The notes under the pieces are model-generated. The model was given only the letters and a program-made list of their open reading frames with translations, ran no database searches and had not been told where the DNA came from. A DNA stretch of 62,079 bases from Collinsella aerofaciens (GTDB taxonomy: Bacteria; Actinomycetota; Coriobacteriia; Coriobacteriales; Coriobacteriaceae): the NCBI RefSeq assembly GCF_028209625.1, contig NZ_JAQLDU010000003.1, forward strand, positions 104,212 to 166,290. The letters run 5' to 3'. Each line of letters begins with the position of its first letter. The stretch's first letter is position 1. Position numbers and translations under genes: made by a program. This document shows, in pieces, positions 50,570-54,772 of this stretch.

Positions 50570-51262
50570 ATGGAACAACACCAGCATTATCAGAGCCTGC
50601 AAGACCAGGCATACAACGCATTGCGCTCCAAGATCATCTATGCCGAGCTCAAGCCCGGCACGCGTCTTTCGGCGATTGGTCTGGAAAAGGAGACGGGAAT
50701 CGGGCGCACGCCCATTCGCGAGTCCTTTGTGCGCCTGCGCGAGCAGGAGCTGGTGGAAACGCGTCCCAAAAGCGGCACCTATGTCTCAAAAATCAGCATG
50801 GAGCGCGCCGAGAACGCCTGTTTCTTGCGCGAGAAACTCGAGCGAAGCGTGCTCATCAAATGCTGTTCGGCCGCCACACCCGAGCAAAAGCATCGGCTCG
50901 AGCAGATTCTTGCCGAGTCCGAATCGCTCGACCATCGCGAAACACGTCGCTTTTTCGATCTGGACAACCTGTTCCACGAGACGTGTTTTGAGATTGCCGG
51001 CCGCCACATGTTGTGGGATTGGATGAAGAGCGTCAACACGCATTTTGAGCGATACAACTGGTTACGTATGGTGTCGCAGGATTTGGATTGGGAGCCGATT
51101 CGTCGGCAGCATCGCCGGATTCTCGAGGCCATTAAGAAGGGCGATACCGATACGGCGAGCTATTTGGCAGAGACGCACTTGCATCTGATGCCCGAGGAGC
51201 AGGGCCCGGTTATCGCCTTGCATCCCGACTATTTCGAGCTGCCCAAAGACTCGGCTATCTAA
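50570..51262 (+). CDS. GntR-family regulator with FCD domain
   Basis: A 230-residue regulator. The N-terminal winged helix reads SLQDQAYNALRSKIIYAELKPGTRLSAIGLEKETGIGRTPIRESFVRLREQELV (about 8-65); the C-terminal all-helical FCD ligand domain (about 85-210) shows the usual metal-site residues in DNLFHETCF, RQHRRILEAI and AETHLHLM. FCD regulators sense small carboxylates or sugars acids. It may control the flavoenzyme gene just upstream (inference). A GAGGGC site precedes the ATG. Confidence 0.87.
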   Translation: MEQHQHYQSLQDQAYNALRSKIIYAELKPGTRLSAIGLEKETGIGRTPIRESFVRLREQELVETRPKSGTYVSKISMERAENACFLREKLERSVLIKCCSAATPEQKHRLEQILAESESLDHRETRRFFDLDNLFHETCFEIAGRHMLWDWMKSVNTHFERYNWLRMVSQDLDWEPIRRQHRRILEAIKKGDTDTASYLAETHLHLMPEEQGPVIALHPDYFELPKDSAI

Positions 51263-51382
51263 CTCGCCCCCTTTATTTGCTGCGGTGAAATTAAGATCGC
51301 TCTGCGGCTCTGGTGGCGTAGGCAGTCCGTATAAATGCCTAAAATGGCTCAGGTTGCCGACAATGGGGAAACGGGGTGCGCT

Positions 51383-52405
51383 ATGGCGCAGATGAGAATC
51401 AAGGACATTGCCGCCGAGGCGGGCGTGAGCCCGGCCACGGTCTCGCGCTACCTCAATAACCGCCCCGGGCAGATGACCGAGGAAACCCGCGCCCGCATCG
51501 CGGCGGTTATCGAGCGCACCGGCTATCGCCCGCGTGCCGCCGCGCGTAATTTGCGCAGCTCGCGCACCAATCTCATCGGCGTGATCATGGCCGACATTAG
51601 CAACCCGTTCTCCAGCGCCATGCTTGAGGACCTTTCCGCCAGCGCCGCTGCGCGCGGCTGCTCGCTCATGACGGCCGTTAGCGGCAATGATCCTGCTAAG
51701 GAGGCCGAATCGCTCACCAGGCTTATCGATGCCGGCGTGGACGGCCTCGTCGTTAACACCTGCGGCGGCAACGACGAGGCGATCGCCGCGGCCGCGGGAC
51801 GCCTGCCTGTCGTTCTGCTCGACCGCGATGTTGCCGCCGGCGGCATCGATCTGGTGACCTCCAACAACCGTGAGCTGGTCGCCGGCCTGGTAGACGCCTT
51901 GGCCTCTGCAGGCAGCGAGCGTCTGTGCCTGCTCACCGAGGCGAGCGACGACAGCCCCGTGCGTCGTGAGCGCGCCGAGGCCTTTGCCGACGAGCTCTCG
52001 CGTCGCGGTCTGGCAGGCGAGGTCGTTACCCTGGCCGATGGTGGCGCCACGGGCGTCGGCCGCCTGGACGAGGCCATCCGCGAGTACGCGGGTAAAAAGC
52101 TCGGCCTTATCGCCGTCAACGGCTTAGTCTTTCTGCGTCTGACCGAGGCGCTGGCGCAGCTGGGTCCCTCGCTGCCGGCGGGTCTCAGGATCGCGGCGTT
52201 TGACGATTACCCCTGGCACCACGTGCTCTTTGGCGGTGTGACCACGGCCGCGCAAGACACCCTTACCATTGCCGAGCGCGTAGTCGAGCGCCTGTCCGAG
52301 CGCATCGACGTCGTTACCACTACGGTGGGCGATGCCGCAAAGCTCGCCCCCAAGCGCATCGAGGTCCCCGGCCACATCGAACACCGCGCTTCGACCTCGC
52401 GCTAG
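51383..52405 (+). CDS. LacI-family transcriptional regulator
   Basis: A 340-residue regulator: helix-turn-helix and hinge RIKDIAAEAGVSPATVSRYLNNRPGQMTEETRARIAAVIERTGYRPRAAARNLRS (about 5-58), then a sugar-binding-protein-like domain with IMADISNPFSSAMLEDL, VLLDRDVA and RIAAFDDYPWHHVL. The FDDY-type pocket is usual for sugar ligands. ATG 51383 follows ACGGGGTG; the frame extends 16 codons upstream without a site. No sugar operon is adjacent, so its target is unknown. Confidence 0.87.
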   Translation: MAQMRIKDIAAEAGVSPATVSRYLNNRPGQMTEETRARIAAVIERTGYRPRAAARNLRSSRTNLIGVIMADISNPFSSAMLEDLSASAAARGCSLMTAVSGNDPAKEAESLTRLIDAGVDGLVVNTCGGNDEAIAAAAGRLPVVLLDRDVAAGGIDLVTSNNRELVAGLVDALASAGSERLCLLTEASDDSPVRRERAEAFADELSRRGLAGEVVTLADGGATGVGRLDEAIREYAGKKLGLIAVNGLVFLRLTEALAQLGPSLPAGLRIAAFDDYPWHHVLFGGVTTAAQDTLTIAERVVERLSERIDVVTTTVGDAAKLAPKRIEVPGHIEHRASTSR

Positions 52406-52447
52406 TCTGTGTGATAATATATAGACAATGTCATACAGGAGGTATCC

Positions 52448-52942
52448 ATGGCTGCGTCTGTGCTGAGTGTGCGAGTGGACTCGTCAATTAAAGATTCATT
52501 TGCCGAGCTGTGCGAAGAACTTGGCATGACTTCGTCTGTTGCAGTCAATATGTTTATGAGACAGATGCTGCGCGAGCGTTCGCTGCCGTTTGTCCCTTCA
52601 CTCGGTAAAAGCTCTGCGAGCGGAAGCGTCGCGGCGGGCATTTTGGATACCGCTCAGATTGAGTCCGCTGTCCGTGAGGCGGCCAGCCCGATTCACGCCA
52701 TCAAAAGCGTGATTCTTTTTGGCTCGTATGCTCGTGGCGACGCGCGCGCCGATAGTGACATTGACTTGCGTCTCGAAGTCGATCGCGATCAGGGCTTTGG
52801 CCTTTTCGCGTTGTCGGCATTCGGCGAGGCGGTGCGCAAAGAAACTGGGAGGCAGGTTGATCTTGTCTCGAGCGACCATCTTGATGCCGATCTTGCCGCG
52901 GTAATCGAGCGCGAAGGAGTGATCCTTTATGATCGCGCGTAA
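52448..52942 (+). CDS. RHH (RelB/DinJ-like) domain fused to MNT nucleotidyltransferase, putative antitoxin
   Basis: A 164-residue two-domain protein. Residues 4-45 form a ribbon-helix-helix unit of the RelB/DinJ type (SVRVDSSIKDSFAELCEELGMT, then VAVNMFMRQML). After a Ser/Gly-rich linker, residues 85-163 are a minimal nucleotidyltransferase with GSYARG (92-97), catalytic D104-I-D106 and a third acidic residue Asp138. In MntA-HepT systems this fold inactivates the HEPN toxin by adding AMP to a tyrosine. The RHH part should add DNA-binding autoregulation. It overlaps the HEPN gene by 14 bases. A TCATACAGGAGG leader with a strong ribosome site precedes the ATG. The fusion is unusual in my knowledge. 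Confidence 0.88.
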   Translation: MAASVLSVRVDSSIKDSFAELCEELGMTSSVAVNMFMRQMLRERSLPFVPSLGKSSASGSVAAGILDTAQIESAVREAASPIHAIKSVILFGSYARGDARADSDIDLRLEVDRDQGFGLFALSAFGEAVRKETGRQVDLVSSDHLDADLAAVIEREGVILYDRA

Positions 52943-53300
52943 GTCAGACGGCCTCCGCGCCCAAGAGGTCTTGGACGCCATCTCTGAAACGAACGAGCGC
53001 ATCAAGGCTTTTGATATCACCGAGGACCAGTTTCTGCATGCGAATGACGTGCGGACGAGGGCGTTGGCGGACTCCCTTTTGATGTGCGCGCTTAGGGTGA
53101 CGGAAGAAGCGGGCAAGTTGTCGGAACGCTCGCAGCGGCTTCATCCCGAAATTGAGTGGCGTGGAATTATCGGCATGAGAAATTACCTCGCGCATGATTA
53201 CGGCAATGTCGACCGATCGGTTGTTTGGGATGCGGTGACGATGGAGTTCCCAGCGCTGGAACGAGCGTGTAGGCAAATTGTTTCCGAATCTGAACGCTAG
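52929..53300 (+). CDS. HEPN-domain protein (HepT/DUF86 type), putative RNase toxin
   Basis: A 123-residue all-helical protein of the HepT family. The active motif RNYLAHDY (Arg84, His89, Tyr91) is an exact RX4HXY, as in HepT, where Arg and His are needed for RNA cleavage and the Tyr is the AMPylation target. Preceding helices contain EEAGKLSERSQRLHPEIEWRGIIGMRN, typical of the family. Gene overlap with the nucleotidyltransferase gene means coupled translation. Together they make a type VII-like toxin-antitoxin unit (function inferred from motifs). Confidence 0.9.
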   Translation: MIARKSDGLRAQEVLDAISETNERIKAFDITEDQFLHANDVRTRALADSLLMCALRVTEEAGKLSERSQRLHPEIEWRGIIGMRNYLAHDYGNVDRSVVWDAVTMEFPALERACRQIVSESER

Positions 53301-53434
53301 CCATTCGTTCGCAACGGCCTGCTCGCGCACGTTTTTTGAGCGCTTGATACGCTTTAACCCTGCGGAAACATTTTTCTGCGATAGTATCTGCGATATAGAC
53401 CAGTCGAAACCCGCCCGAAAGAAAGGGGAGCGAC

Positions 53435-54772
53435 ATGAACCAGCAGAACATCGATTACGTACTCCGCTCCGTAGAGCAGCGTGACATCCGCTTTGTGCGT
53501 CTGTGGTTTGTCGACATTCTTGGCCGCCTCAAGAACTTTGCCATTAGCCCCGAGGACCTCGAGGTCGCTTTTGAGGAGGGTATTGGCTTTGACGGCTCTG
53601 CCATCGAGGGCTTTGCCACGCCCGAGGAAGCCGACATGCTGGCGTTCCCCGATGCTTCGACCTTCCAGATCCTGCCGTGGCGCCCGAGTCACAACGGCGT
53701 CGCCCGCGTGTTCTGCGACGTGTGCACCCCCGATTGCAAGCCGTTTGCCGGCGACCCGCGCGATGCCCTGCGCCGCATGTTCCACAAGGCCGAGAAGGCT
53801 GGCTATCTGCTCAACGTGGGTGCCGAGCTGGAGTATTACTACTTCCCCGACGAGCACACCCCCGAGCCGCTCGACAACGTGGGCTACTTCGATCTTTCGG
53901 TGAGCGATGCCGCCCGCGACCTGCGTCGCAACACGGTTCTCACGCTCGAGAAGATGTCCGTGCCCGTGGAGTACACCTTCCACGCCGCCGGCCGCTCACA
54001 GCATGGCATGAGCCTGCGTCACGCCGAGGCCCTGAGCATGTCCGACGCCATCACCACGGCCAAACTCATCATTAAGCAGCAGGCCTACGAGAGCGGTTGC
54101 CACGCCTCCTTTATGCCCAAGCCGTTGGCGGGCGAGGACGGCAGTGCCATGTTCCTGTGCCAGTCGCTGTTCGACCATGACGGCAACAACGTCTTTTGGG
54201 GCGAGGACGACGAGAAGTACCACCTCTCCGATATCGCCAAGCACTACATGGCCGGCATCTTGGCGCACGCGCGCGAGATCAGCGCCATCACCAACCCCAC
54301 GGTCAACTCGTACAAGCGCATCACCACGGGTGGCGACTCCGTGCCGCAGTACGCCACGTGGGGCCTGCGCAACCGCGCGAGCATGGTCCGCATTCCGGTC
54401 TACAAGCCCGGCAAGCAGCTGTCCACGCGCATCGAGCTGCGCAGTCCCGATCCCATGGCCAATCCGTACCTGGTCAACGCCGTTACGCTGGCGGCTGGTC
54501 TGGATGGCATCGAGCGCAAGCTGGAGCTCCCGCCCGAGGCCACGGCCGAGACGCTCAAGCTTACCGACCGTCAGATGGTCGAGGCCGGCTACACGCCGCT
54601 GCCGCGCTCGCTCAAAGAGGCGCTCGACGTGTTTGAGGACTCGCAGTTTATGAAGGATGCCCTCGGCGAGCACATCCACAGTTTCTTCCTCAAAAAGAAG
54701 CGCGACGAGTGGCATAAGTTTGAGTCTACGATCACCGAGTGGGAGATCAAGCACTACCTGGCGAACTCCTAA
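53435..54772 (+). CDS. glnA: Glutamine synthetase type I (alpha subgroup)
   Basis: A 445-residue enzyme making glutamine from glutamate and ammonia, forming dodecamers. Landmarks are FVRLWFVDILGRLKNFAI, FEEGIGFDGSAIEGFA, GAELEYYYF, the ATP site STFHAAGRSQHGMSLRH-like segment and RNRASMVRIPVY. The adenylylation-site segment of GSI-beta enzymes (NLYDLPPE) is absent, so control by GlnE is unlikely. The ATG follows GAAAGAAAGGGGAGCGAC. The next gene is a GlnR-like regulator 50 bases downstream, suggesting a nitrogen-control operon. Confidence 0.95.
   Translation: MNQQNIDYVLRSVEQRDIRFVRLWFVDILGRLKNFAISPEDLEVAFEEGIGFDGSAIEGFATPEEADMLAFPDASTFQILPWRPSHNGVARVFCDVCTPDCKPFAGDPRDALRRMFHKAEKAGYLLNVGAELEYYYFPDEHTPEPLDNVGYFDLSVSDAARDLRRNTVLTLEKMSVPVEYTFHAAGRSQHGMSLRHAEALSMSDAITTAKLIIKQQAYESGCHASFMPKPLAGEDGSAMFLCQSLFDHDGNNVFWGEDDEKYHLSDIAKHYMAGILAHAREISAITNPTVNSYKRITTGGDSVPQYATWGLRNRASMVRIPVYKPGKQLSTRIELRSPDPMANPYLVNAVTLAAGLDGIERKLELPPEATAETLKLTDRQMVEAGYTPLPRSLKEALDVFEDSQFMKDALGEHIHSFFLKKKRDEWHKFESTITEWEIKHYLANS

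Follow-up and report, generated by a model that had tools for sequence, protein, structure and literature searches.

Type VII toxin-antitoxin systems of the MntA-HepT type pair a minimal nucleotidyltransferase (MNT) antitoxin with a HEPN toxin and have been described from Shewanella oneidensis (SO_3165/SO_3166; 5yep, 6m6u, 7bxo), A. flos-aquae (7ae2, 7ae9) and Legionella pneumophila (8xeh). In the accessible parts of the literature, Shewanella MntA has been reported to place three AMPs on Y104 (PMC7641770), and MntA is described without a DNA-binding domain (PMC7641770, PMC4621449). The regulation of MntA-HepT operons is poorly settled. Here, we analyze a 62,079-nucleotide stretch of Collinsella aerofaciens (contig NZ_JAQLDU010000003.1, positions 104,212 to 166,290; "the window", to which all positions refer) in which an MNT enzyme is followed by a HEPN gene. 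Like MntA-HepT, this unit has the MNT gene first, an overlapping HEPN gene, the motifs GSX10DXD and RX4HXY and the same predicted folds, but in contrast to it a ribbon-helix-helix (RHH) head of the RelB/DinJ type is fused to the enzyme. We consider it probable that the unit is a toxin-antitoxin cassette composed of an AMPylating MNT, an RHH repressor and a HEPN RNase toxin. It is best read as a type VII-like enzyme antitoxin with a putative operator-binding head that appears to be exchangeable among relatives.

The RelB/DinJ antitoxins of type II systems (9lew, 4q2u, 4ml0) have the N-terminal RHH in common with residues 1-50 of the fusion, whereas the fusion carries an enzyme in place of the toxin-binding tail and is partnered by a HEPN instead of a RelE-fold toxin. 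In the paREP1 RHH-HEPN fusions (Makarova et al. 2009, PMC2701414), an RHH is likewise found on one half of a HEPN/MNT pair, but there it resides on the HEPN, and in the accessible text none stands in an operon with an MNT. The same source, as far as it is available, describes HicB antitoxins fused to RHH or XRE, a precedent for an antitoxin fold acquiring different DNA-binding heads although HicB is no nucleotidyltransferase, and suggests a separate DNA-binding component in trans for MNT/HEPN pairs. Xress-MNTss of Streptococcus suis (PMC8406773) is comparable in that an Xre-named partner and an MNT form one auto-regulating pair; unlike the fusion, it consists of two components, and its MNT is reported as the toxin in the accessible part of that study. 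Anantharaman et al. 2013 name MNT fusions to HEPN in the portion available, and the terms RHH and ribbon-helix are absent from the main text. An RHH-MNT fusion beside a HEPN was not found described in the literature searched, where subscription papers are poorly covered and absence is thus unproven. What is new is a dedicated DNA-binding head that differs between relatives. By analogy, the fusion and its HEPN should work like MntA-HepT, and the dedicated head would make promoter control specific and exchangeable.

The fusion gene (52448..52942, forward strand, 164 residues) begins with the RHH head (residues 1-50, 52448..52597) and runs into an MNT domain (residues 69-164, 52652..52939). Residues 1-58 match TIGR02384 (RelB/DinJ) at 55.0 bits with a cut-off of 45.65, PF04221 covers residues 4-48, and matches to PF01909 and PF18765 cover residues 75-163. 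The exact GSX10DXD of MntA, as defined in the accessible part of PMC7641770, is present as G92-S93-X10-D104-X-D106, and D138 is found as well. The overlapping downstream gene (52929..53300, forward strand, 123 residues) starts 14 bp before the end of the fusion frame and encodes a HEPN protein that matches the HepT-like family PF01934 with E 2e-16 and contains R84-X4-H89-X-Y91. These results confirm the initial annotation, which had proposed an RHH continuing into a complete MNT and a next gene for a HEPN with an exact RX4HXY motif. In a comparison of structure models, the predicted MNT fold is nearest to solved MntA antitoxins and the predicted HEPN fold to HepT toxins. The fusion matches the MntA equivalog NF047752 at 50.6 bits and the HEPN matches the HepT equivalog NF047751 at 30.6 bits; both scores are under the curated 60 bits, and for this reason the pair is not filed under these NCBIfam families. 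The NCBI labels of two fusions with RelB-type heads (P0003 and P0241) are type II RelB/DinJ antitoxins. Automatic annotation mislabels such fusions and the enzyme is overlooked.

PF04221 and a nucleotidyltransferase domain occur together in 85 of the 120 homologues listed, of 126, by a count made by hand that includes some fragments; identities range from 46 to 94%. The window resembles chromosomal DNA of Actinomycetota, and among named organisms C. aerofaciens strains carry the closest relatives of the unit. Across 36 aligned fusions, the MNT active site (G92, S93, D104, D106, D138) is invariant, as are RHH positions including R9, K15, F18, C22, E24-L25-G26, S30, A32, N34, Q39, R42 and P47-F48. 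R, H and Y of RX4HXY are invariant in 36 of 36 aligned HEPNs, although these rows were chosen partly by the motif itself. Compared with five close relatives (L002, L003, L004, L005, L014), the nonsynonymous rate (dN) of the RHH is 0 with 5-9 synonymous changes, and the ratio to the synonymous rate (dN/dS) is 0.09-0.16 for the MNT, 0.04-0.11 for the HEPN and 0.30-0.48 for the linker. In the near-identical locus L001 the RHH is unchanged and the MNT carries two replacement changes and one silent change (ratio 0.64). Against the more distant L006, where dS is saturated, dN amounts to 0.055 for the RHH, 0.85 for the linker, 0.34 for the MNT and 0.15 for the HEPN. Hence, head, enzyme and toxin have been maintained by purifying selection and the linker is far less constrained. 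A chance or mis-assembled fusion is ruled out by the listed homologues, by open frames in many assemblies and by this selection.

Among loci with the same type of head (group A), a profile search over distinct proteins found the HEPN directly downstream in 15 of 18 that could be assessed, a count without L056 (contig end) and L026 (no head). The exceptions are L015, where the HEPN is deleted and the fusion intact (genome G015), L020, with an apparent remnant recognized by eye, and L023. MNTs linked to HEPN genes also carry other N-terminal heads in genomes of the same order. A HEPN lies downstream in 5/8 loci of a second RelB type (group B), 14/20 with CopG/Arc-like heads (group C), 4/5 with AbrB-like heads (group E) and all three single cases (Fic with a helix-turn-helix (HTH), L025; XRE, L040; and L038). 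Two of the five group B HEPNs (L024, L041) are broken by a stop near the N-terminus, the fusion of L041 having a stop of its own; in group C, L027 has a split frame and L065 and L082 are fragments. Taking all heads together, 41 of 54 loci have a HEPN match above 80 bits (L079, L086 and L087, with an incomplete head or as near copy, are set aside). Conversely, 65 genomes of the nearest genome's family, presumably Coriobacteriaceae, gave 24 HEPN matches at E 1e-20 or better, each with an MNT directly upstream. In L041 (G022:C21), both this MNT and its HEPN are interrupted, and no intact toxin without an antitoxin gene was seen among the 24 matches. Thus, it is the toxin that is lost, with the antitoxin retained.

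Leader, fusion and HEPN gene form a cassette of 895 bp (52406..53300, forward strand) with nothing else inside, flanked by a LacI-type gene and, downstream, by a glutamine synthetase-like gene (neighbors named by eye). We compared 13 loci with at least 95% identity in the latter gene, from 44 genomes searched. In nine of them the LacI-type gene is joined directly to the glutamine synthetase-like gene, leaving a clean empty site; three carry the whole unit, and one (L089, genome G015) carries the fusion with the HEPN deleted. The unit is a discrete, self-contained cassette that has probably entered or left this site as one piece. The hexamer CGCTAG is found at both ends (52400-52405 and 53295-53300) and could reflect duplication of the target or homology by chance; in three empty sites (L091, L094, L098) this position has CGCTAA. 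Both copies contain stop codons, that of the upstream gene and that of the HEPN. The upstream flanks differ in L006/L011 and L017-L022, so these relatives occupy other sites.

Ahead of the fusion gene, an imperfect inverted repeat, CTGTGTGA-N16-TCATACAG (52407..52438, forward strand; arms at 52407-52414 and 52431-52438), reaches from a -10-like hexamer at 52413-52418 as far as the Shine-Dalgarno sequence at 52437-52442. All 11 distinct group A leaders contain GTCATACA ahead of the gene despite differing flanks, and TCATACA occurred in shuffled leaders with a mean of 0.06 hits. Loci that share the window's site and are near copies of it were omitted from the 11; among them, L014 has ATCATACA. 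ACAATGTCATACA occurs a single time in the window, at 52425-52437. The repeat of L006 is CTGTATGA ... TCATACAG with the 16-base spacing of the window, and in the leader of L059 the repeat is perfect over 10 bp and keeps the outer spacing; the remaining group A leaders vary in left arm and spacing. Between L006 and the window, 31 of 42 leader bases are identical compared with 11 of 33 just upstream, although synonymous sites are saturated. The repeat at 52407-52438 is thus a candidate operator for the antitoxin. A structured leader RNA was dropped as an explanation since no Rfam family reached threshold in 51000-54000. A consensus scan also marks TCGACC-16-GATAAT, whose second hexamer is preceded by TG, as a weak possible promoter (52391..52418, forward strand; one found versus 0.6 expected in shuffles).

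Leader motifs of the related loci mostly appear to go with the type of N-terminal head. The groups were typed via short patterns with manual fixes, and the head of L038 was named by eye. The second RelB type passes TIGR02384 (56.9 bits in P0241), and its leaders contain GTAATA/TATTAC in 6 of 8 cases (shuffles, mean 0.62), as do 4 of 20 group C leaders. Group C heads were named CopG/Arc-like by eye, and their PHROGs matches are weak (E 0.001-0.08 in 3/3) and include Arc-like repressors; no Pfam hit above cut-off was obtained in the five scanned (P0121, P0167, P0123, P0170, P0219) and no NCBIfam head hit above cut-off in four (P0123, P0170, P0219, P0189). TDCAWWTG cores of palindromes such as GTATTGCAATTGCAATAC occur in 17 of 20 group C leaders and 0 of 11 group A leaders; these shorter cores replaced a first degenerate pattern that had matched 0/20. 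AbrB-like heads reach 18.4-19.4 bits with TIGR01439, below the cut-off of 28.3 (3/3 scanned), and the palindrome CTTGGTACCAAG stands in 2/2 group E leaders; L077 and L078 carry it too, but were inspected after the motif had been defined. Palindromes at p 0.05 or less versus shuffles were found in 13/20 leaders of group C, 3/8 of group B and 2/2 of group E, but 0/1 with the Fic-HTH head, 0/2 with the XRE and L038 heads and 0/5 unfused MNT-HEPN controls. A significant palindrome in every single leader is rejected by these per-leader counts.

In a joint MNT and HEPN tree of 35 loci, group E, the Fic-HTH fusion (group D) and L060 fall inside the group C clade on starred branches. In L060, a RelB-type head is joined to a core placed among the CopG-like ones, and its leader has GTCATACA and no group C core. 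Keeping the CopG-like rows together was not rejected in this tree (AU test, p 0.073), and a swap of heads within this clade is suggestive only. A branch with 100/100 support divides group A from group B, and separate origins of the two RelB-type fusions would rest on it; four long branches are flagged. Group A is not one clade in the joint tree, where L059 and the unfused L046 interrupt it (three changes, one forced by starred branches), whereas the MNT-only tree recovers one clade with support 84 but is weak, with 100 columns and 45 of 92 inner branches open.

Computation establishes the architecture, the intact motifs, the predicted folds, the selection, the cassette ends and the leader motif. 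DNA binding, AMPylation and toxicity are what we infer, AMPylation and RNase activity by analogy with the named relatives MntA and HepT. The HEPN would be a growth-inhibiting RNase restrained by the fusion. The MNT half would move AMP from ATP onto Tyr91 of the HEPN, within the R84/H89 motif, and thereby block it. The RHH half would dimerize, bind the leader at about 52407-52438, a stretch that covers the -10-like hexamer and reaches the Shine-Dalgarno sequence, and repress the operon, a role proposed because RHH antitoxins do so and the leader is conserved. With the MNT modifying the HEPN and the RHH repressing, one polypeptide would serve both as type VII enzyme antitoxin and as type II repressor. 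This dual role, put forward in the initial annotation, is supported as far as sequence can test it by motifs, folds and joint conservation, as well as by mobility as one cassette, toxin loss with the antitoxin kept and head-linked leader motifs. Several observations limit this reading. The inverted repeat of the window alone is not significant versus shuffles (p 0.40), and a significant palindrome (p 0.05 or less) was found in just 3 of 12 group A leaders. GTCATACA also occurs in three group C leaders (L043, L058, L082). Moreover, a DNA-binding MntA is not wholly new: in the accessible part of PMC4621449, Shewanella SO_3165, with no predicted DNA-binding domain, reportedly binds its own promoter and represses it, the deletion strain showing 1.6-fold higher promoter activity. 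With regard to the toxin, the Legionella pair shows in the accessible part of PMC11586414 that RX4HXY is not necessarily the RNase site.

An RHH that merely dimerizes or stabilizes the MNT, or clusters it with the HEPN, and binds no operator is the most serious alternative, though an improbable one; the leader would then be conserved for translation or promoter signals. RHH domains are obligate dimers, and in most leaders of group A the motif directly adjoins the Shine-Dalgarno sequence. Known complexes also hold pairs of MNTs, with 2:6 or 2:2 MNT:HEPN in the accessible part of PMC11586414. However, GTCATACA is kept at 15-18 bases from the start codon in L059, L021 and L022 compared with 10-13 elsewhere, and leader motif and head type change together, including AbrB-like heads on cores among CopG-like ones. 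We regard as very unlikely a double antitoxin in which the MNT handles the HEPN and the RHH neutralizes a toxin of RelE/YoeB/YafQ type elsewhere in the cell. The head does score over the RelB/DinJ subfamily cut-off, and the order has unfused RelB-type genes with a YoeB toxin gene behind them (L034, L053), but the C-terminal part of RelB-type antitoxins embraces the toxin, and the matches end at position 46 of 82 in PF04221 and 58 of 85 in TIGR02384, a variable linker and the MNT standing where this part would be. The gene partner of the RelB-type head is a HEPN (PF01934), with no RelE-fold toxin found next door. Equally unlikely is a domesticated or unrelated nucleotidyltransferase pair outside toxin-antitoxin biology (e.g. 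for small-molecule nucleotide transfer), given that the MNT rows of HEPN-MNT pairs rank above AadA (13.6 versus 8.0), that the partly motif-picked HEPN rows retain R, H and Y, that HEPNs fused to an MNT in one protein typically lack RNase residues (PMC3710099, accessible part) and that a clean-ended cassette with toxin-only loss fits toxin-antitoxin behavior.

Beyond the type VII-like enzyme antitoxin with an operator-binding head, we tentatively raise a wider possibility, which taken as one joint claim is rather doubtful. In this order of Actinomycetota, the MNT-HEPN core may be a modular chassis that repeatedly gained or exchanged operator-reading heads (two RelB-type RHHs, CopG/Arc-like, AbrB-like, XRE and Fic-HTH), at least four head groups having their own leader motif. 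The antitoxin would leave the operator when it engages unmodified HEPN and regain it once the HEPN is AMPylated. As DNA binding and toxin modification would be coupled in one molecule, the operon would sense ATP-dependent neutralization and not the mere toxin:antitoxin ratio. With a DNA-binding head fused in beside a visible candidate operator, it becomes possible to test directly whether a type VII-like system regulates itself, and the related loci, with other heads and different leader motifs, amount to swap experiments made by nature.

Among the single cases, the group F locus (L040:1342-2140, genome G066) has an XRE head (PF01381, 27.0 bits, cut-off 23) fused to the MNT, and its downstream HEPN has RNRIVHDY. 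The group D locus (L025:409-2185, genome G090) encodes a Fic (DUF4172 and Fic)-HTH_DeoR-MNT fusion, with Fic and HTH_DeoR passing Pfam, and the HEPN that follows has RNRLAHAY; a single antitoxin-like protein thus combines two different nucleotide-transfer folds. The AbrB-like-MNT fusions L075, L077, L078 and L083 have a HEPN downstream and L080 lacks it; the CTTGGTACCAAG palindrome precedes the gene in such loci. Of 396 genomes sampled evenly across the phylum, six gave a match with an E of 1e-15 or lower, and all six belong to the order. The distant protein P0299 combines a RelB-like N-terminus (PF04221, 17.5 bits, cut-off 22.4) with an MNT domain, which hints at a spread of the architecture beyond the order. 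Several genomes of the genus contain short MNT genes of about 100 residues (L031, L032, L033, L035, L039) with no adjoining HEPN match. The MNT part of the fusion also matches models of the PADLOC phage-defence candidate PDC-S09, with a best E of 4e-15.
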